Below are positions 1 to 16,085 of a stretch of DNA of 32,531 nt, one piece after another (the first letter of the stretch is position 1; every line of letters begins with the position of its first letter). The notes beneath the pieces were generated by a model that had not been told where the DNA came from, made no database searches, and was given only the letters and a program-made list of their open reading frames with translations. The position numbers were made by a program, and so were the translations under genes. The DNA lies in assembly GCA_022826305.1 (NCBI GenBank), contig JAJDVC010000199.1, forward strand, positions 1 through 32,531. The letters run 5' to 3'. The DNA is from Gammaproteobacteria bacterium (GTDB taxonomy: Bacteria; Pseudomonadota; Gammaproteobacteria; Arenicellales; Poriferihabitantaceae).

Positions 1-719
1 TCCACGTTCCGCACCGCCTCGTCGAAGGTCACCCGCCACGTCAGGCTGTCCGCCGCGGTCGGCGAGACCGACGGCGCATGCCTCACGATCGACGACACCC
101 GCGGCGAAGTCGTGTCCGTGCCGCCGTCGTTGTCGCGGATGGTCACCGTGGCCGTGGGATTGGCGCCCACGGAATACCCGACCGGAAACGGATCGATGGC
201 GACCCCCGGCGACGGATCGATGTCGATCCTGAAGGTCTCGTCCGGCTCCACGACCTCGTGGTTCCATGCGTTCGATTCCACCACCTCGGGCGATTCGTCC
301 ACGGTCCGGACGGTGAAGGTGTGCGAGCCGGCGTTCGCCGGAATGGTCACGCTGTCGGGCGACGCCTCGTAGTCCTTGCCCACCGCGAATTCCCGCTGGC
401 TGTCATAGCTGACGTGCCTTCTGCGGGCCGTGCCGCCGCTCCCCCTGTCCGCATCCCGGTAAACGAGGCCCACTTCCGTGGCCGTGGCGCGCGGCGGGTC
501 GATGTTCACCGTCACGCTGACTTCCCCTCCCTCCGTCACGCTCCAGGACGCGCTGGCGAAACCGATCGTGTAGGTCTGCGCCTGTGCTACGGTCGAGAGG
601 CCGAACAGCAGCGGCAACCACAGCAGGCCGCCCGCAACGGCGCGGAGGAAGGATGATTCAGGCGGGCAGGAGCGGGCAGAGACCGGACGGAGGAACCGCC
701 GCCATATGGCCCCGATCAT
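1..719 (-). CDS. Secreted Calx-beta / Ig-like repeat protein, 5' part (gene continues past left edge)
   Basis: This frame is open on the minus strand from an ATG at 719 to the edge of the window, so the ORF track misses it. After a polar leader of about 24 residues comes a hydrophobic stretch (AVAGGLLWLPLLFGLSTVAQAQ) that looks like a Sec signal peptide with cleavage after AQA. The mature part reads TYTIGFASASWSVTEGGEVSV and later NPTATVTIRDND, the spacing and closing motif of a Calx-beta domain. A second motif, DSLTWRVTFDEAVRNVD, resembles the Ig-like modules repeated in large bacterial surface proteins. It is probably an exported calcium-binding or adhesin-like protein; its binding partner cannot be inferred. 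The ATG at 719 has no purine-rich ribosome-binding site. The nearest good one serves an ATG at 825 on the far side of an 8-bp repeat tract and out of frame, so the true start is uncertain. Confidence 0.8.
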   Translation of the reverse strand, partial: MIGAIWRRFLRPVSARSCPPESSFLRAVAGGLLWLPLLFGLSTVAQAQTYTIGFASASWSVTEGGEVSVTVNIDPPRATATEVGLVYRDADRGSGGTARRRHVSYDSQREFAVGKDYEASPDSVTIPANAGSHTFTVRTVDESPEVVESNAWNHEVVEPDETFRIDIDPSPGVAIDPFPVGYSVGANPTATVTIRDNDGGTDTTSPRVSSIVRHAPSVSPTAADSLTWRVTFDEAVRNV

Positions 720-744
720 GACCGGAATGCGAACGCAGGTTGGG

Positions 745-817
745 CGATCCAGCGATCCAGCGATCCAGCGATCCAGCGATCCAGCGATCCAGCGATCCAG
801 CGATCCAGCGATCCAGC
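745..817. repeat. Octanucleotide tandem repeat, nine perfect copies of CGATCCAG
   Basis: Nine uninterrupted copies of CGATCCAG run from 745 to 816, plus one extra C. The unit length is not a multiple of three, and on the minus strand every frame through it is open (ALA-GLY-SER-LEU-ASP-ARG-TRP-ILE in rotation). Each unit contains one GATC. The tract lies between an ATG with a GAGG ribosome-binding site and the open frame of the secreted Calx-beta protein. This is the arrangement of a slipped-strand contingency locus. Confidence 0.95.
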
Positions 818-822
818 TTATT

Positions 823-838
823 CATGATGCGAACCTCA
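823..838 (-). promoter_or_regulatory. Ribosome-binding site and ATG upstream of the octamer tract
   Basis: Reading the minus strand, GTGAGG is followed after eight bases by ATGAATAAG (ATG at 825-823), which runs straight into the repeats as LDRWIAGS units. With nine copies this start reads a dead-end frame that stops at 658. The distance to the ATG at 719 is 106 bases, so gaining one unit (10 copies) or losing two (7 copies) would join this start to the secreted-protein frame. Confidence 0.55.
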
Positions 839-1687
839 CGGCAACTTGTCAAACCCCGATCCAGAACCCCGCCTGCGGCAACCGGAACATGCTCGCCACA
901 ATGACGAGCATGAGAAATCCTGGCGGATGATGCCGGATTCAACACGCGAAGACAAGTCCCGCATGACCTGTCGGAACCACAGGTGCAGCAGCGGTGACGG
1001 CGCACCGGTCCCATGACACCAGCCGGATTTTGGCGCACTGCCGCTGGCGGGGCATTGCCACCCGCCATGCCAGGCCTGCCGCATCGTTCCGCGCCGCCAG
1101 CCATGGCCAGCGCCTCATGTCATGCTGCGATGACTCGTGACGGCAATGTCTTGGGAAAGTAATTTCCTGAAAAAAATCCGGATTATCCGATGGAAGGCTC
1201 ATCGACACGACCATGGCATGCCAGTGTGAAACTGTTAGGAGAGACGAAACTTACGCTGCAAGGTTGCGCTGGATGGCGGGGAAACACGGCCTTCCGGGCA
1301 ATATCACACACCGCTCGCCGGAGTCCGCCGCTTTGGCAGGCAATGCTCCCTGAACGCATCCACGCCCAGTTCGTTCACCATCTGCCTGAAGTTGCAGCCC
1401 AGCGCCATCACCCGAACATTGCACGAGCACCGAGAAGCAGGTGAGATTCAGGATATCAGGAGACGGAGAGGTCGGTATCGACGACAGGCAACGGTTTTGC
1501 CCGGCATTTCCTGCGGTGAAAGCCGCTTCGGAGGACCGGCAACGGGCCTCCAGGTCGTCGCTTGCGGCCGTTGCCGGAGGTCCGGGCAGGAGCAGTCCTC
1601 ACACCGTGGCGTGATCGGGCAATGTTCGGGGTAGCACCGGCGGGCGGGCCACCGCAAACCCCGATTCATTGAAATACCTTCACACTC
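826..1687. other. Long stretch without a recognised gene
   Basis: About 860 bases in which none of the listed ORFs resembles a protein family I know. One minus-strand stretch near 1317-1425 reads like coding sequence (VMALGCNFRQMVNELGVDAF), but it has no clear start and stops quickly, so I treat it as a possible decayed fragment only. Confidence 0.5.
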
Positions 1688-1904: not shown

Positions 1905-2735
1905 TCACGCCTTCGGGTCACGACGCCTGGTTGGCGGATGCAGTGTCGGACTGTCTACCGACTGCCTTCTCGCGCCGGAACCTTTGGGGCGGTAGACATG
2001 CGCCCTGGATGAATCATAGAGGTAGGAATCGCAAAACCCGTCGCTGCCCAGCACCCTGCCGACCAGTATCAGGGCCGTCCTGGTAAATTTCCTGGCACGT
2101 ACTTTCCCGACGATATCCCCGAGCGTTCCGGACACCCGCTCCTGGTCAGGCCAGGACGTGCGATAACACACCGCTACCGGACAATCCTCGCCATAGTGCG
2201 GAATCAGTTCCTCCACGATCCTGTGAATTCGCGGGACACCCAGATGAATGGCCAGGGTAGCCCCGGTAGCCGCCAGCGCTGGCAGCCGTTCGCGTTCCGG
2301 GAACGGCGTCTTGCCCTCGTAGCGGGTCAGGATCACCGTCTGGGTTATGCCGGAGAGCGTCAGTTCCCTGCCCAGCCAGGCCGCCGATGCCGAAGTTGCG
2401 GTGACGCCCGGGATGATTTCGTAGTCGATCCCGAACACCTCAAGGCGCCGAATCTGCTCTGCGACGGCACCATAGATCGAAGGGTCTCCCGAGTGCAGGC
2501 GGGCAACGTCCCGTCCCGCCGCGTCAGCCTTCCTGATTTCCCCGATGATCTGGTCAAGGTCCATGGATGAGGTGTCCATGACCAGTTCCGCGGAATCCCC
2601 GGCCGGTTCGAGGACCGCGCAAGGCACCAGCGAACCAGCATACAGGATCACCGGGCATGCGGCGATAAGCTTTTGTGCCTTGACCGTGAGCAGTTCCGGG
2701 TCACCTGGCCCGGCGCCGATGAAATAGACCGTCAT
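1905..2735 (-). CDS. cobM: Precorrin-4 C11-methyltransferase (CobM/CbiF)
   Basis: Transfers a methyl group from S-adenosylmethionine to C-11 of (cobalt-)precorrin-4. The start is taken at ATG 2735 rather than the upstream track start because the protein then begins MTVYFIGAGPGDPELLTVKA, the family's N-terminal SAM-binding loop. Further tetrapyrrole methylase signatures are RLHSGDPSIYGA and YEIIPGVTATSASAA. The core ends near YLYDSSRAHVYRPKG, the usual CobM end, and is followed by a basic tail of about 25 residues that is probably disordered. The start codon overlaps the cobJ stop codon (ATGA), so translation is coupled. It is the last gene of the operon. Confidence 0.95.
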   Translation of the reverse strand: MTVYFIGAGPGDPELLTVKAQKLIAACPVILYAGSLVPCAVLEPAGDSAELVMDTSSMDLDQIIGEIRKADAAGRDVARLHSGDPSIYGAVAEQIRRLEVFGIDYEIIPGVTATSASAAWLGRELTLSGITQTVILTRYEGKTPFPERERLPALAATGATLAIHLGVPRIHRIVEELIPHYGEDCPVAVCYRTSWPDQERVSGTLGDIVGKVRARKFTRTALILVGRVLGSDGFCDSYLYDSSRAHVYRPKGSGARRQSVDSPTLHPPTRRRDPKA

Positions 2736-3508
2736 GACTGCCTGCCGTAACCCCTGGGCGTGTAGACCCACTCCTGCTGCGGCGTTTCAAGGCGGCGACT
2801 CTCGCTGTTCCCTACCGATACCAGCGTGAACATGTCGATGTCTCCGGCCTCCAGTTCCGATAACCTGACCACGCGAATGCGTTCATTCCTGCGGGTCAGC
2901 TGTTGCCCGATAATCACGGGCGTTGCGGACGGTCGGTATTCAAGCAGGATTTCCCGGGCGGCATCGATCTGCCAGTTTCGTCTCCCTGACCGGGGGTTAT
3001 AGAGCGATATCACGAAATCGCCCGCACCGGCGGCGTGCAGACGCCTGGCGATGGTTTCCCACGGAGTAAGCAGGTCGGACAGGGAAATGGCGCAGAAGTC
3101 GTGCCCCAGTATGGCGCCGCATCGGCTGGCTACCGCCTGCATGGCGGAAATTCCAGGTATGACCTCTATCTCCACGCCATGCCAGCCGCCCCCCCGCAGG
3201 GCACCATCTGGGTGCCGGTCAAGCAGTTCGAATACCAGGGTCGCCATGGCGTATATTCCGGCATCGCCGCCGGATACCAGGGATGTCACCCGCCCTCCGG
3301 CGGCGAGATCCAGTGCAAGACGGGCCCGTTCGGTTTCCTTGCCGAGAGGCAGCTCGTGCAACGTTTTTCCGTCACGGATGGCTCCGAGCAGTTCCAGGTA
3401 CAGTCCATAGCCCACCAGTTCGCTGCTGGCCCCGATAGCCGCAGCGGCCCGGGGAGTAACGAGGTCCGGACTGCCGGGGCCAAGACTCACAATGTACAGT
3501 CTAGTCAT
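2732..3508 (-). CDS. cobJ: Precorrin-3B C17-methyltransferase (CobJ/CbiH)
   Basis: Methylates C-17 and drives ring contraction in corrin synthesis. The ATG at 3508 gives MTRLYIVSLGPGSPDLVTPRA; the longer track start adds 16 residues that do not belong to the family. Diagnostic segments are SGGDAGIYAMA, VIPGISAMQAVASRCGA, DFCAISLSDLLTPWE and VISLYNPRSGRR, all characteristic of CobJ/CbiH. At 258 residues it is normal for a single-domain CobJ, without the fused C-terminal extensions some bacteria have. It overlaps cbiG by eight bases upstream and cobM by four downstream. Confidence 0.95.
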   Translation of the reverse strand: MTRLYIVSLGPGSPDLVTPRAAAAIGASSELVGYGLYLELLGAIRDGKTLHELPLGKETERARLALDLAAGGRVTSLVSGGDAGIYAMATLVFELLDRHPDGALRGGGWHGVEIEVIPGISAMQAVASRCGAILGHDFCAISLSDLLTPWETIARRLHAAGAGDFVISLYNPRSGRRNWQIDAAREILLEYRPSATPVIIGQQLTRRNERIRVVRLSELEAGDIDMFTLVSVGNSESRRLETPQQEWVYTPRGYGRQS

Positions 3509-4286
3509 CTTCAGGGTTCTTCGTTGCAATCCCGGCGCAGGCTCGGGCAATGGCACAGGTGGCGCGTCCCGACTTGCGCTTCGGCACCATCAGCTCAGGC
3601 TGTGCGCCGGTAGCCCGTGCTGCTGCCAGAAGCGCTGCTGACTCCGCCACACCGTAGATGCCGACGGTCTCCTTCACATAGTCCGAACGCACCGACAGTA
3701 ACGGCTCCATCGGCGAGAGGTCGGCGGCGCTGAACACCTGGAAAGGTATGTTGAGGCGTCCGCACAGATTCCGCAGCCCGGGCTCATCGCGCTTGATATC
3801 GATACTGTTTACCGAGTGCAGGCTGTCTTTCGGCATCTCCGCCAGTCGGAGACACTGCTTGAGCAACGTTTCAAGCTCCTGGTCGCTGCAATTCCGTTCA
3901 CACCCCATTCCAGCCGTATAGACAGGCTCCGGGCAGGCGCTCGCAGTGGTCAGTACGGGCCGGGCCCCGATCGCGCCGGCAACCTCCATCGCAAGCGCGT
4001 TCGCACCGCCTTCGTGGCCGGACAGCAACGAAATGACATATGCGCCGACCTGGTCCAGCACCACTACCGGAGGATCCGTTTTCTTGCTCCCGAGGACCGG
4101 CGCCAGGGTGCGCACGACAATGCCGGTGGCACAGATCATCACCAGTGCATCCCCGTCCCGGAACGCCTGTTGAACCCGCGCCTTGAACGGGCTCGGCCTG
4201 TGCCACTGCCTGCAGTTCGGGAGACGCTTCACGATCTTCCTGCCCAGATCACGCCCTGCCGGGGTAAGGCTTACCACCTGTCTCAC
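3501..4286 (-). CDS. cbiG: Cobalt-precorrin-5A hydrolase (CbiG), short form
   Basis: Opens the delta-lactone of (cobalt-)precorrin-5A and releases the two-carbon fragment as acetaldehyde in the oxygen-independent route. The N-terminal domain shows VMICATGIVVRTLAPVLGSK and VISLLSGHEGGANALA. The C-terminal domain has the family signature YTAGMGCERNCSDQELETLL and a late VGIYGVAESAALLAA. At 261 residues it is shorter than the roughly 350-residue enterobacterial CbiG; the connecting middle region seems to be reduced. The start is a GTG overlapping the cobI stop (GTGA). CbiG together with CbiD in the same operon argues for the oxygen-independent type of ring contraction. Confidence 0.9.
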   Translation of the reverse strand: MRQVVSLTPAGRDLGRKIVKRLPNCRQWHRPSPFKARVQQAFRDGDALVMICATGIVVRTLAPVLGSKKTDPPVVVLDQVGAYVISLLSGHEGGANALAMEVAGAIGARPVLTTASACPEPVYTAGMGCERNCSDQELETLLKQCLRLAEMPKDSLHSVNSIDIKRDEPGLRNLCGRLNIPFQVFSAADLSPMEPLLSVRSDYVKETVGIYGVAESAALLAAARATGAQPELMVPKRKSGRATCAIARACAGIATKNPEDD

Positions 4287-5011
4287 TTGACCGCCCGCCC
4301 GGCGCGCATTACCAGAAACAGGGAAAAGTAGGGACCTGCTTCGACCGGAAGGCGGCTCACGTCGGTTTCGACACGCTGGTTGTCCCGTCCTATGTATTCA
4401 AGGTAAACCGCCTCCTCGGTCCGCCCGGCGCGCTCCAGCGCCTCGATAATCCGGGGGCGCGAACGACCCGCCTTCATGATGACGACACTGTCATGAGCAT
4501 CAAGCGTCTGCACTATCTGCCCAAGGTCATGGCGGCCGCTGGCTACGGCGAAAGACTCGTCCAGCAGGGTCAGCGGACGCTGCAACGCGGCGGAAGCAGC
4601 ATGCATTGAGGAAATGCCCGGCACGACTTCACAACGGTTATGCACAAGGCGTATCAGCAGGTATGCAAAGGAGCCGAAAAACAGGGGGTCGCCCTCGCAC
4701 AGGAACACGACCCGCTTGCCTGCGTCGATGCGTTGCTGGATGTCGGAAGCGGCCAGGTCGTAAATCCGGTTGGCAGGCGTGCGGTCGTCGTTCATCGGCA
4801 CCACGAAGGGGAGTTCCTCCTGGTGCCCGGGCGCCTCTTCAAGCAGTCCGCCAGCGATATCGCGCGCCTGCGACCTGCCGGGAGCACTGCAGATATAGCT
4901 GACCACATCTGCATGGAGAATACGGTCTGCCGCCCTGATGGTGATCAATCCGGGGTCACCCGGCCCCACGCCGACACCGGTAAAAGCAGATTGACAGGCC
5001 TCGATCTTCAT
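4283..5011 (-). CDS. cobI: Precorrin-2 C20-methyltransferase (CobI/CbiL)
   Basis: Adds the C-20 methyl group to precorrin-2, the first step committed to cobalamin rather than siroheme. The ATG at 5011 overlaps the cobL stop (ATGA) and gives MKIEACQSAFTGVGVGPGDPGLITIRA. Other tetrapyrrole methylase landmarks are VVFLCEGDPLFFGSFAYLL, CEVVPGISSMHAASAALQRPL and SVVIMKAGRS. The segment TEEAVYLEYIGRDNQRVETD near the C-terminus fits the CobI/CbiL subgroup. The length (243 residues) is normal for the family. Confidence 0.95.
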   Translation of the reverse strand: MKIEACQSAFTGVGVGPGDPGLITIRAADRILHADVVSYICSAPGRSQARDIAGGLLEEAPGHQEELPFVVPMNDDRTPANRIYDLAASDIQQRIDAGKRVVFLCEGDPLFFGSFAYLLIRLVHNRCEVVPGISSMHAASAALQRPLTLLDESFAVASGRHDLGQIVQTLDAHDSVVIMKAGRSRPRIIEALERAGRTEEAVYLEYIGRDNQRVETDVSRLPVEAGPYFSLFLVMRAGRAVK

Positions 5012-6273
5012 CCATGCACACCTTCGCTCTTGCAAAGCCGGAACAGACTTACGGGTCGCTTCCGCGCCTGGGTCCATTCACCTGCACGGAACCTGCTCCG
5101 GCTTACCGCGATGTCAATGGATTCAGCCAGGGCGATGTCCCGCCGTTTGCAGAAACCCCGCAGGCACTCGCGGCTTGAACCGGTCACGGCGCTCGCGACC
5201 AGCAATCCGCCTGATGCCAGACGTTGCCAGCAGTAGTCCAGCAGCAGGGGCAACTTGCCTGCACTGCCTCCGATAAAGACCCGGTCCGGGTCCGGCACCG
5301 ACTCCAGTACCGCCGGCGCATTGCCATTCACGACCTCGACGTTGGACACGCCGAACCTTGCGCGGTTGGCGCGGATGCATCGCAGCCGTTCCGCATGACA
5401 TTCGACAGCGAATATCGTTGCGTCGGGATGCCACAGGGCAAGTTCGGTGGCGACGCCGCCGCACCCGGCACCGACATCCCAGACCAATTGATTCGCACCC
5501 GTCTGCAGGAGAGACAGGATCTGCAGCCTGGTCTCCCGCTTGCTGATCATCCCGGCACCGGGCCCGCCATCGGTAACAAGGTCGGTATCCCGGATACCCG
5601 GAAAGTCGGGGACGCCCCTGCCCCTGCCCCGAAGATGCAGCACGCTGATGTTCAGGTCGGCAAACGACCGGCCGGTATCCCTGTCGAACCCATTCACGTC
5701 AATACGGTGTATCTTCTCGTCATCGTAGCCGAGCCTTTCACAAACCCACAGGATCGACTGCTCCAGCTGCGCATCGATGCAGATGCCCGCCAGCGTGTCC
5801 GGGGGGCTGTTCTGGTCCGTAAGGATCACCAGCGTGCGGCCGGGCCGCAAATGACGGTTCAGGGTGTGCAGGGGTCTGCCGTGCAGGCTCACGACGGTGC
5901 AATCCTGCAACGACAGCCCGAGACGGCTGCAGGCGGCCTGGATGCTTGACAGGGCGCCATGAAACCTGAGCTTCGACAACGGATACTGTCGGCTCAGCCG
6001 CCGGCCGATGCCAAAGAACAGGGGATCGCCGGAGGCCAGGACGGCCACCTCGCCACCATGTCCTGCAAGCAGTGTATCCAGTTGTGCAACCTTCGACAGC
6101 GTGATCATCGGCGGCCAGTCAGCCGGCATTGTCCGGGTCATGGCACACAGCCATTCCAGGTGACGCTCGGTACCGATGATGGCCGAAGCGCCCCTGAGCG
6201 CCGCCTCGGCAACGGAACCCAGCCGGCCGCCGGCTTCCACGCCCAGGCCCACAACATGAATCCGGTCGGCCAT
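5008..6273 (-). CDS. cobL: Precorrin-6Y C5,15-methyltransferase, fused CbiE-CbiT (CobL)
   Basis: A two-domain enzyme that methylates C-5 and C-15 and decarboxylates the C-12 acetate side chain. The CbiE-type domain begins MADRIHVVGLGVEAGG and includes VAVLASGDPLFFGIGRRL. The CbiT-type domain begins around MISKRETRLQILSLLQ, followed by the SAM-binding LVWDVGAGCGGVATELAL and later DRVFIGGSAGKLPLLL. At 421 residues it has the usual fused CobL length. The ATG at 6273 overlaps the cobH stop by one base (TGATG); the track's upstream start adds only three residues. Confidence 0.95.
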   Translation of the reverse strand: MADRIHVVGLGVEAGGRLGSVAEAALRGASAIIGTERHLEWLCAMTRTMPADWPPMITLSKVAQLDTLLAGHGGEVAVLASGDPLFFGIGRRLSRQYPLSKLRFHGALSSIQAACSRLGLSLQDCTVVSLHGRPLHTLNRHLRPGRTLVILTDQNSPPDTLAGICIDAQLEQSILWVCERLGYDDEKIHRIDVNGFDRDTGRSFADLNISVLHLRGRGRGVPDFPGIRDTDLVTDGGPGAGMISKRETRLQILSLLQTGANQLVWDVGAGCGGVATELALWHPDATIFAVECHAERLRCIRANRARFGVSNVEVVNGNAPAVLESVPDPDRVFIGGSAGKLPLLLDYCWQRLASGGLLVASAVTGSSRECLRGFCKRRDIALAESIDIAVSRSRFRAGEWTQARKRPVSLFRLCKSEGVHG

Positions 6274-6914
6274 CAGTACCACTCACCGTGGTTGCAGCGC
6301 AACAGCGCGTTGCAACTGGCGGCCGTCGGTGCGCTGCCGCCTTTTCTCCCCGGCAGCGTAATGCACTCGACGCCCAGTTCACGGTGCCGCTCCCACAGCA
6401 ATTGCTTCGATTCCTGTGCTCCCACGAAACCGACCGGCATGGCAATGACCAGTGCCGGGACGCCAGCGTCGCCTTCAAGCATTTCCAGCAGGCGAAACAG
6501 GGCCGAAGGCGCATTACCGATAAGGACCACGCTACCTGGCAGCAGTTCGCGCCACAGGTCCAGAGCCACCATGGATCGCGTCTGCGCATGTTCCCGTGCC
6601 CGTCTGGACACCGACTCGTCATTGAGAAAGCACAGTGGCGGTTTCGACAACAGTCGCCGGGTTATGCCCTGGCATACCATTTCGACATCGCAAAGGATCG
6701 TGCATGAGTCCCGGAGCGCCGCACACCCCATGTCACATGCCCGCTCGCTGAAACGCAGTTCGCCGGCGATGCCCGGTTCTCCGAGGCTGTGCACCACGCG
6801 CATTGCCACCTGCTGCTGGACACGGCCGAGACCATCGAGATCGGTCACACGGCGAATCCGGCGAAAGCTTTCGTGCTCGATCTCGACAGGATCTGACAGA
6901 TACTCTCTGGACAT
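6273..6914 (-). CDS. cobH: Precorrin-8X methylmutase (CobH/CbiC)
   Basis: Moves the C-11 methyl group to C-12, producing hydrogenobyrinate or its cobalt form. The ATG at 6914 gives MSREYLSDPVEIEHESFRRI, the standard family start; the longer track ORF runs back into cobK. Family segments visible are VVHSLGEPGIAGELRFS, ILCDVEMVCQGITR, LIGNAPSALFRLLEML and VGFVGAQESKQLLW. The conserved histidine in RVVHSLG corresponds to the proposed proton-transfer residue of the family. The length is 213 residues. It starts seven bases after the cobK stop. Confidence 0.95.
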   Translation of the reverse strand: MSREYLSDPVEIEHESFRRIRRVTDLDGLGRVQQQVAMRVVHSLGEPGIAGELRFSERACDMGCAALRDSCTILCDVEMVCQGITRRLLSKPPLCFLNDESVSRRAREHAQTRSMVALDLWRELLPGSVVLIGNAPSALFRLLEMLEGDAGVPALVIAMPVGFVGAQESKQLLWERHRELGVECITLPGRKGGSAPTAASCNALLRCNHGEWY

Positions 6915-6921
6915 GGCGAAC

Positions 6922-7677
6922 CTATTCCATACCAAGTTGCAGTACTGCGTCATGGCAGGCGGGAACATCATCGAACTCGCGATCCACCACAGGCAGTTCG
7001 GGCCGTGCCAGCAGGTGGACCGGGACACCGTGTTCCCGGGCGACCACCAGCTTGGCTGCAGAATGCCTTCCGCCGCTGTTCTTGCAGACTATCGCATCAA
7101 CGGCGAGCTTGCGAAGCAATTGCCGCTCCGCATCGATTTCGAATGGACCGATTGCCTGGATCCATGACATGGATGACGGCAGATCGATCAACGGCATCGT
7201 GGCCGAACGCAACCACTGCTGCTGACCGGCGGAACGCGTGGAGGCCGAGAGGGTGTCAACGAACCCCTGGGACAACCGTCCCGTGGCAAGAAACACCGAA
7301 CGCGAATACGCCAGTTCCGGAAGCAGCGATTCCCAGTCATGGAACACCTGCCACCGGTCACCCGGTCTTTCCCGCCAGGCCGGGCGCAGGTAGCGCCAGC
7401 ACCTGATCCCTGCCGTACTGCCAGAGCAGGCGGCCTGCCGGCTCATGGTGGATGCGTAGGGATGGGTCGCATCGAGAATCAGGTCGATCGCCTCATTGCA
7501 GAGCCACTGGTCAAGGCCGCCGTGACGGCTGAATCCGCCGCTGATCACCCTGCAGGGAAGATCCGGCTGGCGCACCTGGCCAGCGATGCTGTAGATGACG
7601 TCGATCGTTTCGTGCCGGTGCAGCCGACTGGCCAGATCCACGGCCTCGCGGATGCCGCCCAGTACCAGAATCCTCAT
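6922..7677 (-). CDS. cobK: Precorrin-6A reductase (CobK/CbiJ)
   Basis: Reduces the macrocycle of precorrin-6A using a nicotinamide cofactor. The protein begins MRILVLGGIREAVDLASRL, a Rossmann-like start typical of the family, and has LILDATHPYASTMSRQA, which contains the conserved DATHPYA motif. The later segments VFLATGRLSQGF and DAIVCKNSGGRHSAAKL (the KNSGG motif) are also diagnostic. At 251 residues it has normal length. The ATG overlaps the cbiD stop (ATGA), indicating coupled translation. Confidence 0.92.
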   Translation of the reverse strand: MRILVLGGIREAVDLASRLHRHETIDVIYSIAGQVRQPDLPCRVISGGFSRHGGLDQWLCNEAIDLILDATHPYASTMSRQAACSGSTAGIRCWRYLRPAWRERPGDRWQVFHDWESLLPELAYSRSVFLATGRLSQGFVDTLSASTRSAGQQQWLRSATMPLIDLPSSMSWIQAIGPFEIDAERQLLRKLAVDAIVCKNSGGRHSAAKLVVAREHGVPVHLLARPELPVVDREFDDVPACHDAVLQLGME

Positions 7678-8771
7678 CGGCTGAAGGGAGCATGACCAAC
7701 GAGATCGCCATGCCGGTCAATGGCCCACACCTCCACGTCCGTGCCGGGGCCCGCCAGGTCGGCCGCAAAATCACGGGCAAGGCCACAGACCGGCGCGGCA
7801 ATCCCCACATCCGCTTCCCGACACATCTGCAGGACCTCGATACTGGTATTGGCCGAGAGGATACGGCTGGACAGGTTCCGGTCCGCACCGCCCGCAGCCG
7901 CGATTCCCGACAGGAATCGGAAATCGATTGAAGACTTTCGACTGTTGAGATCCCGGTTCCTGCACGCCAGCTTGCTGATCTTGCCGAATCCGCCGCAGAT
8001 GCTCAGACGGGCCACCGGATGTCGTCGCAGGTATTTCAGCATCGCACCGGCGAAATCCCCCATTTCGACCAGTGCCGAATCCTCCAGCCCGTAGTGCCGC
8101 CTGATCGCGCATTCGCTACTGTTGCCGGTGCTTGCGGCGATATGCGACAGGCCACAGGCTCGGGCGACATCAATGCCCTGATGAATGGATGCAATCCAGG
8201 CCGCACAGGAATAGGGGCGGACGATACCGCTCGTGCCGAGTATGGACAACCCGCCGACGATGCCAAGCCGCGGATTCATGGTTTTCCGTGCCAGGGCCGC
8301 GCCAGCCTCGATGCCGACACTCACTTCGAACCCTTCCGTGTAGTCGAACCGCAGGGCCTGACGGGCCAGGTGTTCACGCATCATCCGCCTCGGTACGGGG
8401 TTGATGGCGGGCTCCCCCAAGGCAAGCGGCAGACCGGGCCGGGTCACTGTACCCACCCCCTCTCCGGCACGGAACCGGACACCGGGCGGTTTCCTGCGAT
8501 GCAGTTCAACGAAAACGCAGGCACCATGCGTGATATCGGGATCGTCGCCGGCGTCCTTGATGGTCGAGGCATGAACCCCCTGATCCCGTGTTTCGCAGGC
8601 TTCTATGGGCAAAGCCACCTCATCGCCCTTCGGCAGGGTCACAGTTACCTCCTCAAGGGACAGACCGGTGAACAGCCGCTCGGAGGCGGCAACACAGCAG
8701 GCCGTGGCACAGGTTCCCGTGGTGAATCCGCTACGCAGCCTGTTCGAACGTTCCGCGCTCTCGGGCCACAT
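7674..8771 (-). CDS. cbiD: Cobalt-precorrin-5B C1-methyltransferase (CbiD)
   Basis: Methylates C-1 of the contracted ring in the oxygen-independent route. The N-terminal RSGFTTGTCATACCVAASERLF carries the FTTGTCA signature of CbiD. Other matches are IKDAGDDPDITHG, GEPAINPVPRRMM, GLSILGTSGIVRPYS and HIAASTGNSSE. The length is 365 residues, as expected. It starts three bases after the stop codon of the permease gene on the same strand. Its presence together with cbiG, and the absence of cobG and cobF from this window, favours the cobalt-early logic. Confidence 0.95.
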   Translation of the reverse strand: MWPESAERSNRLRSGFTTGTCATACCVAASERLFTGLSLEEVTVTLPKGDEVALPIEACETRDQGVHASTIKDAGDDPDITHGACVFVELHRRKPPGVRFRAGEGVGTVTRPGLPLALGEPAINPVPRRMMREHLARQALRFDYTEGFEVSVGIEAGAALARKTMNPRLGIVGGLSILGTSGIVRPYSCAAWIASIHQGIDVARACGLSHIAASTGNSSECAIRRHYGLEDSALVEMGDFAGAMLKYLRRHPVARLSICGGFGKISKLACRNRDLNSRKSSIDFRFLSGIAAAGGADRNLSSRILSANTSIEVLQMCREADVGIAAPVCGLARDFAADLAGPGTDVEVWAIDRHGDLVGHAPFSR

Positions 8772-15197: not shown

Positions 15198-16085
15198 ATG
15201 AATCATGTGAGCCCACTTCGCTATCCTGGGGGAAAATCCGCTCTTTCGGATTTCCTCATTGACATCATTGATCTCAACAACCTTCGTGATGGTGCTTATT
15301 ACGAGGCCTACGCAGGTGGAGCTGGCGCAGGGCTCAGGTTATTGATGGAAGGTGTCGTCTCGGAGATATATCTGAACGATGTCGACTCACGAATTCATGC
15401 GTTTTGGGTCAGTGTTCTTGACGAACCGGAGCGTTTCGAGAAGTCGATACGCGAAATACCGCTGTCTATTGAGGAATGGAAGAAGCAAAGGGAAATATAT
15501 CTGAACCCGGATCACCATGATCGGTTTGACCTCGGGTTTGCGGCATTCTATATGAACCGCTGCAACCGGTCGGGGATCTTGATGGATGCGGGTCCGATCG
15601 GTGGTTTTGGGCAGCAGGGAAAGTGGCATATGGGTGTACGTTTCAATCGGGAAACCCTTTCCAGGCGAGTACTCGATTTGGCTGGCTATCGTGAGAACAT
15701 CCATGTATTCAACAAGGATGCCATCAGATTTCTCAAGGAACACCTACCGAAAGGCCGTGGCAGGTCCCACGTGTTTGTCTATCTGGATCCTCCGTATGTG
15801 AACAAGGGTCGTCGCCTGTACTTCAATGCCTACGGAAAAAAGGACCATGCCACCCTGGCGAGGTATCTCCTGAACCAGAAATCACTGTACTGGATCATGT
15901 CCTACGACGATAACAGCCTGGTACGGGATTTGTACAGGGACCGCTTGAGGGCACTGGTGCACTCGAGCTACACGTTGCAGTCCAGGCGGTCCACACATGA
16001 GATCCTGATCGCCCCGGAACATGTAACTATCCCACTGGAACAACGTGTCGGACACAACCGGTTTCCATTAAGGAAAGTAGCGTAA
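15198..16085 (+). CDS. D12-class DNA N6-adenine methyltransferase (Dam-like)
   Basis: A 295-residue DNA methyltransferase that should transfer a methyl group to adenine N6. The protein starts MNHVSPLRYPGGKSAL, the standard start of D12-class enzymes, so I chose ATG 15198 over the GTG at 15165. The SAM-binding motif is AYYEAYAGGAGAG (about 33-45), the family segment YMNRCNRSGIL is at 118-127, and the catalytic motif is VYLDPPY at 194-200. The recognition site cannot be inferred; the many GATC words upstream are suggestive only. It ends directly against the ATG of the ParB-like gene, so the two are co-transcribed. Base composition is more AT-rich than in the cobalamin operon, suggesting transfer. 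Confidence 0.92.
   Translation: MNHVSPLRYPGGKSALSDFLIDIIDLNNLRDGAYYEAYAGGAGAGLRLLMEGVVSEIYLNDVDSRIHAFWVSVLDEPERFEKSIREIPLSIEEWKKQREIYLNPDHHDRFDLGFAAFYMNRCNRSGILMDAGPIGGFGQQGKWHMGVRFNRETLSRRVLDLAGYRENIHVFNKDAIRFLKEHLPKGRGRSHVFVYLDPPYVNKGRRLYFNAYGKKDHATLARYLLNQKSLYWIMSYDDNSLVRDLYRDRLRALVHSSYTLQSRRSTHEILIAPEHVTIPLEQRVGHNRFPLRKVA

Follow-up and report, generated by a model that had tools for sequence, protein, structure and literature searches.

An octamer array ahead of a secreted reading frame as a candidate contingency locus in an uncultured, probably gammaproteobacterial genus

The octamer array and its reading frames

Here, we describe a putative contingency locus near the start of a 32,531-nucleotide stretch of DNA (the window; contig JAJDVC010000199.1 of assembly GCA_022826305.1), where an array of tandem octamers separates a start codon from the frame of a secreted protein. 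The gene occupies the minus strand of what we call contig C4 of genome G000, a draft assembly (3.03 Mb, 263 contigs) that is 90.8% complete. A partial 16S fragment places the organism roughly, its best matches being gammaproteobacterial records at about 85% identity. The contig begins inside the gene, so that the secreted frame can be read over only 247 residues. The features of the gene and its leader (all on the minus strand) are listed below, together with related contigs of the same genome where these share them.

927..955, minus strand: alternative promoter-like sequence TTGTCT-17-CATCAT, by consensus resemblance only; C219 and C238 have similar hexamers, likewise with 17 nt between them (by eye)
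834..837, minus strand: Shine-Dalgarno sequence GAGG, 8 nt upstream of ATG825 (from the sequence)
824..852, minus strand: promoter-like TTGACA-17-CATCAT, overlapping ATG825, with transcription predicted to start at the array, near 817 (one found against 0.5 expected in shuffles)
823..825, minus strand: upstream start codon ATG825 (MNKLDRWIAGS...), shared with C238; in C219, C230 and C74 an ATG stands just ahead of the repeat
746..817, minus strand: putative switch, nine octamers GCTGGATC (Tandem Repeats Finder (TRF), shuffles, frame arithmetic)
3..743, minus strand: frame of the secreted open reading frame (ORF), from the array end to the contig end, with a signal peptide and then Calx-beta-like or repeat domains, incomplete
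719-716, minus strand: ATGA overlap of ATG719 with a TGA, the stop of the upstream ORF when there are 8 or 11 units
717..719, minus strand: ATG719, head of the secreted frame, lacking a Shine-Dalgarno-like sequence
658..660, minus strand: TGA that closes the ATG825 frame at the present nine units, giving a 55-residue product (frame arithmetic)

The array fills positions 817-746 with nine perfect units, and TRF reports it at 744-817 with 9.2 copies and 100% matches, while none of 100 dinucleotide shuffles of the window contained at least three tandem octamer units. It is thus a perfect tandem repeat far above chance length (9 x 8 bp) with a unit that is not a multiple of three. Moreover, it forms part of an open tract that follows a start codon with a ribosome-binding site, such that a change in unit number shifts the frame. 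Both properties are among those by which contingency loci are recognised. An earlier, sequence-only reading of this DNA had placed nine perfect 8-bp units, each carrying a GATC, between ATG825 with its Shine-Dalgarno sequence and a secreted frame headed by an ATG without one, and TRF and the sequence agree with it on every point.

Frame arithmetic also bears out the claim that start codon and secreted frame are out of register at nine units and in register at 7 or 10, where the ATG825 frame fuses with the secreted ORF. At 8 or 11 units this frame ends in the TGA that overlaps ATG719, the stop beginning 1 nt from the A of that codon, and at 9 or 12 units it ends 59 nt beyond the ATGA stop. The further claim that all three frames are open holds inside the array, since the unit contains no stop codon, but not downstream of it, where each of the two off frames soon meets a stop (ORFs of 33-63 residues). 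The predicted folding of the leader is no better than that of shuffles.

The protein had been described as exported and as a Calx-beta protein. A signal peptide is indeed present (...AVAGGLLWLPLLFGLSTVAQAQ), with the protein cut off by the contig end, and to call it a secreted repeat protein is safe. The Calx-beta label derives from a motif and from neighbouring domains, there being no match to Pfam Calx-beta (PF03160) above the curated cut-off on the 247-residue window fragment. It has a match (E 1.8e-96) to residues 585-773 of a frame on contig C2 of a congener, G003, and that protein has a Pfam Calx-beta match (E 7.4e-16) just before the matching region. Calx-beta identity of the window protein is likely by motif (VTEGG, ATVTIRDND). 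Pfam matches to Cupredoxin_1 and DUF7926 fell below cut-off and were disregarded, NCBIfam gave no match for the secreted proteins, and a sequence search of solved structures returned nothing significant. A structure prediction for the window domain, made with no alignment, had a predicted local distance difference test (pLDDT) score of 35 and was left unused.

Sister loci and homologs with other repeats

The sequence-only reading had suggested a search for the same octamer ahead of other surface genes. Octamer arrays occur at exactly four sites in the genome, C4 (9 units), C219 (5), C230 (15) and C238 (22), and in every case the array is preceded by an ATG and followed by a paralogous signal-peptide ORF. 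Their frame states are mixed, with one in frame and three not: from the upstream ATG, C230 reads through 1165 residues, while C4, C219 and C238 stop after 45 to 73. The C230 array begins 10 nt from a contig end, leaving its copy number insecure and its Shine-Dalgarno region beyond the visible sequence. Unit numbers are strongly unlike between paralogs with similar flanks (9 versus 22 for C4 and C238, 5 versus 15 for C219 and C230). The C238 array consists of 14 T-type units followed by 8 C-type units (a T to C variant), and this block of eight would point to past slippage of a point variant. Arrays of 3 to 15 units of the octamer also occur in unrelated genomes (17 stretches), where a frame scan revealed no shared context, and these were set aside as independent.

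Further members of the family were found by searching with the N-terminal region, for ten array-bearing homologs in total. A fifth paralog, on C74 of the same genome, carries (GATGCCG)15 directly after its ATG. The first ATG of C74 is out of frame and an internal one is in frame, because the heptamer itself contains ATG. Congener G003 has five homologs with homopolymers at the same place: C2 (C17), C23 (C10), C37 (G13), C63 (C14) and C85 (G13). The tract of G003 C63, ATGGATCGCCGGATCG and then C14, amounts to two C238-type octamers running into poly-C, and removal of one base from the octamer GGATCGCC gives the heptamer GGATGCC. The leaders of C74 and G003 C63 are alike by eye (GGGGTTGACAG...GCGACCATGGAT). 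We infer that the repeat unit has been exchanged in evolution (octamer GGATCGCY, heptamer GGATGCC, poly-C, poly-G) while the position of the switch was kept. The equivalent of ATG719 is an ATG in 8 of the 10 homologs and a TTG in G003 C37 and C85, and all of them except G003 C2, nine of ten, retain the overlap in the form of ATGA or TTGA. Two loci, C238 with its 22 units and G003 C63, are presently in the ATGA frame.

The genus was sampled with seven genomes, one per species, in which 60 tract regions were examined, followed by 20 more. Poly-C/G tracts of at least 10 number 6 in the own genome and 4, 12, 10, 11, 78 and 21 in the others, and many lie between an ATG with a Shine-Dalgarno sequence and a signal peptide (such as ATGAAACTTCTACGAACACTCA-C10-HKLTALLLLAMLAGPAVAQ). 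Tract lengths may be unreliable singly, some being less than 100 nt from contig ends and a few very long; at L138 (G001:C307:7600-9421) a run of 51 C/G stands at a contig end and is either real or an assembly artefact. Of 24 genomes of the family, 5 contain the pattern ATGAAA-N4-20-C10, and none contains the reversed control pattern. Among 18 distinct secreted loci with the layout of ATG, poly-C/G and signal peptide (a count that left out one wrong-strand row and one Calx-type family row), 5 are in frame and 13 are not, near one third. Several loci of one layout in mixed frame states, another mark of contingency loci, are therefore found both for the octamer (1 of 4 in frame) and for poly-C/G (5 of 18). 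L209 (G013:C4:1-1500), from another genus of the family, combines ATGAAA and C12 with a signal peptide that is out of frame, and hence the layout is not confined to one genus.

Three congener tracts lie at or inside genes for N6/N4 adenine methyltransferases fused to HNH or Mrr: L128 (G003:C9), L133 (G003:C84) and L142 (G004:C3). Methyltransferase genes are frequent targets of phase variation, and these tracts possibly mark phasevarions. The slipped-strand contingency architecture proposed by the sequence-only reading is thus supported by paralogous octamer loci, by homologs with other repeats at the same place, and by congeners with the same layout.

A switch and its alternatives

In light of this layout, what might the array do? 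We consider it probable that it is a contingency-locus switch which turns the secreted protein on and off by slipped-strand mispairing. Translation would start at ATG825 and pass through the array, reaching the secreted frame only at a fitting unit number (7, 10 and so on). Slipped-strand mispairing in living cells would gain or lose units, and the resulting change of frame would switch the protein on or off, with a presumed benefit at the cell surface. The present nine units would be an OFF state that yields the 55-residue peptide. Judged from its sequence, the system is one of the contingency-locus family, its observed part being the anatomy of the locus, the four-locus layout and the replacement of the repeat.

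Several points weigh against such a switch. ATG719, in view of its retention as ATG in most homologs, could be the sole start. A fused product would give the signal peptide a long N-terminal extension, the promoter-like TTGACA-17-CATCAT overlaps ATG825, and from the upstream ATG only one of the ten loci of the family is in frame (C230, at a contig end). Finally, the data are assemblies, one genome per species, from which we infer that repeat number varies.

The proposal of a binary switch stands as far as fusion versus off is concerned, but the frame that ends at the ATGA may not be simply off. A ternary switch would give fusion at 7 or 10 units, a stop at the ATGA with coupled re-initiation at ATG719 and a shorter signal peptide at 8 or 11, and silence at 9 or 12, that is, two protein forms and an off state, with the position kept while the unit was exchanged. 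ATGA overlaps are an arrangement known for coupled re-initiation. The close apposition of stop and start at 8 and 11 units, the two loci now in the ATGA frame and the overlap kept in nine of the ten homologs all argue for three states, which would also account for the keeping of a start codon that has no Shine-Dalgarno sequence. However, common descent alone may keep the overlap, a second start of this sort is absent from the ATGAAA-type loci of the genus, and no report of such a switch was found in the open-access literature. On balance we hold a ternary switch to be rather unlikely.

It is improbable that the array is an untranslated leader, transcribed from TTGACA-17-CATCAT and followed by translation from ATG719 at any copy number, so that the repeat would at most tune the amount of protein. 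The predicted start near 817 would fit this, as would a TTGACA at the same spacing ahead of the ATG in C74 and G003 C63, but a single promoter-like match is within chance, and ATG719 has no Shine-Dalgarno sequence and is replaced by TTG in G003 C37 and C85. These two loci have instead a promoter-like TTGCAT-17-TATAAT about 40 nt upstream of their upstream ATG (by eye), and there are other genes in the genus that depend on the upstream ATG. Least probable of all is a neutral repeat copied along with a duplicated gene, as the paralogy of all four octamer loci and the context-free arrays in unrelated genomes might suggest, given that the position is kept while the repeat type is replaced and that the layout recurs in non-paralogous secreted genes and in methyltransferases of the genus.

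The GATC in each unit looks incidental. A Dam-type role for it found no support, since in this genome, at its 90.8% completeness, Dam-like matches were below cut-off only and MutH was not found. One weak Dam-like match (27 bits, below cut-off) is to an open frame at 15210-15992 of the window. Elsewhere in the window, several tetrapyrrole methylase genes and a CbiD gene (1905-8771) are part of a cobalamin pathway cluster, and about 104 bp of the intergenic region upstream of the gene (1042-1145) recur at many genome sites with 75-83% identity, as a dispersed element.

Parallels and meaning for the genus

Translational contingency loci built on simple sequence repeats are known from the lic genes of Haemophilus influenzae and from Neisseria opa. 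The proposed switch resembles them in having its tract inside the 5' end of an ORF, early stops when out of frame, surface or secreted products, and several loci per genome. It differs from these tetramers and pentamers in its octamer or heptamer units, in its Calx-beta-like secreted proteins, and in belonging to an uncultured lineage.

In H. influenzae, the octanucleotide GCATCATC is reported at a distance of 200-213 nt ahead of hmw1A/hmw2A, and another, ATTATTTG, precedes a pyridoxine gene by 12 bp. Depending on the strain, hepta-, octa- or nonanucleotides potentially control the expression of hmw (PMC2651432). The octamer unit is shared with our locus, and the strain-dependent unit of hmw may be compared with the unit exchange seen here. 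Unlike those repeats, which lie upstream of the gene, the present array comes after the start codon and before the secreted frame. The congener methyltransferase genes, with tracts at or inside their 5' part, recall phasevarions; unlike phasevarions, these enzymes are fused to HNH or Mrr, and they are encoded in congeners, outside the window.

No octamer frame switch of this kind, nor anything on this genus, was found in the open-access literature. The kind of system is already known; what is new is an octamer read inside an ORF, the gene family and the lineage, and possibly the third state.

Descriptions of large phase-variable repertoires driven by repeats come mostly from host-adapted pathogens. 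In the uncultured, probably gammaproteobacterial genus described here, candidate switches number in the dozens for secreted proteins, and DNA methyltransferases have some as well. With units exchanged at a fixed position among paralogs, the way in which contingency repeats arise and turn over can be studied by comparison. The ATGA overlap offers a simple way to ask whether a single repeat yields three expression states; if it does, one repeat would give rise to two forms of a secreted protein and an off state.
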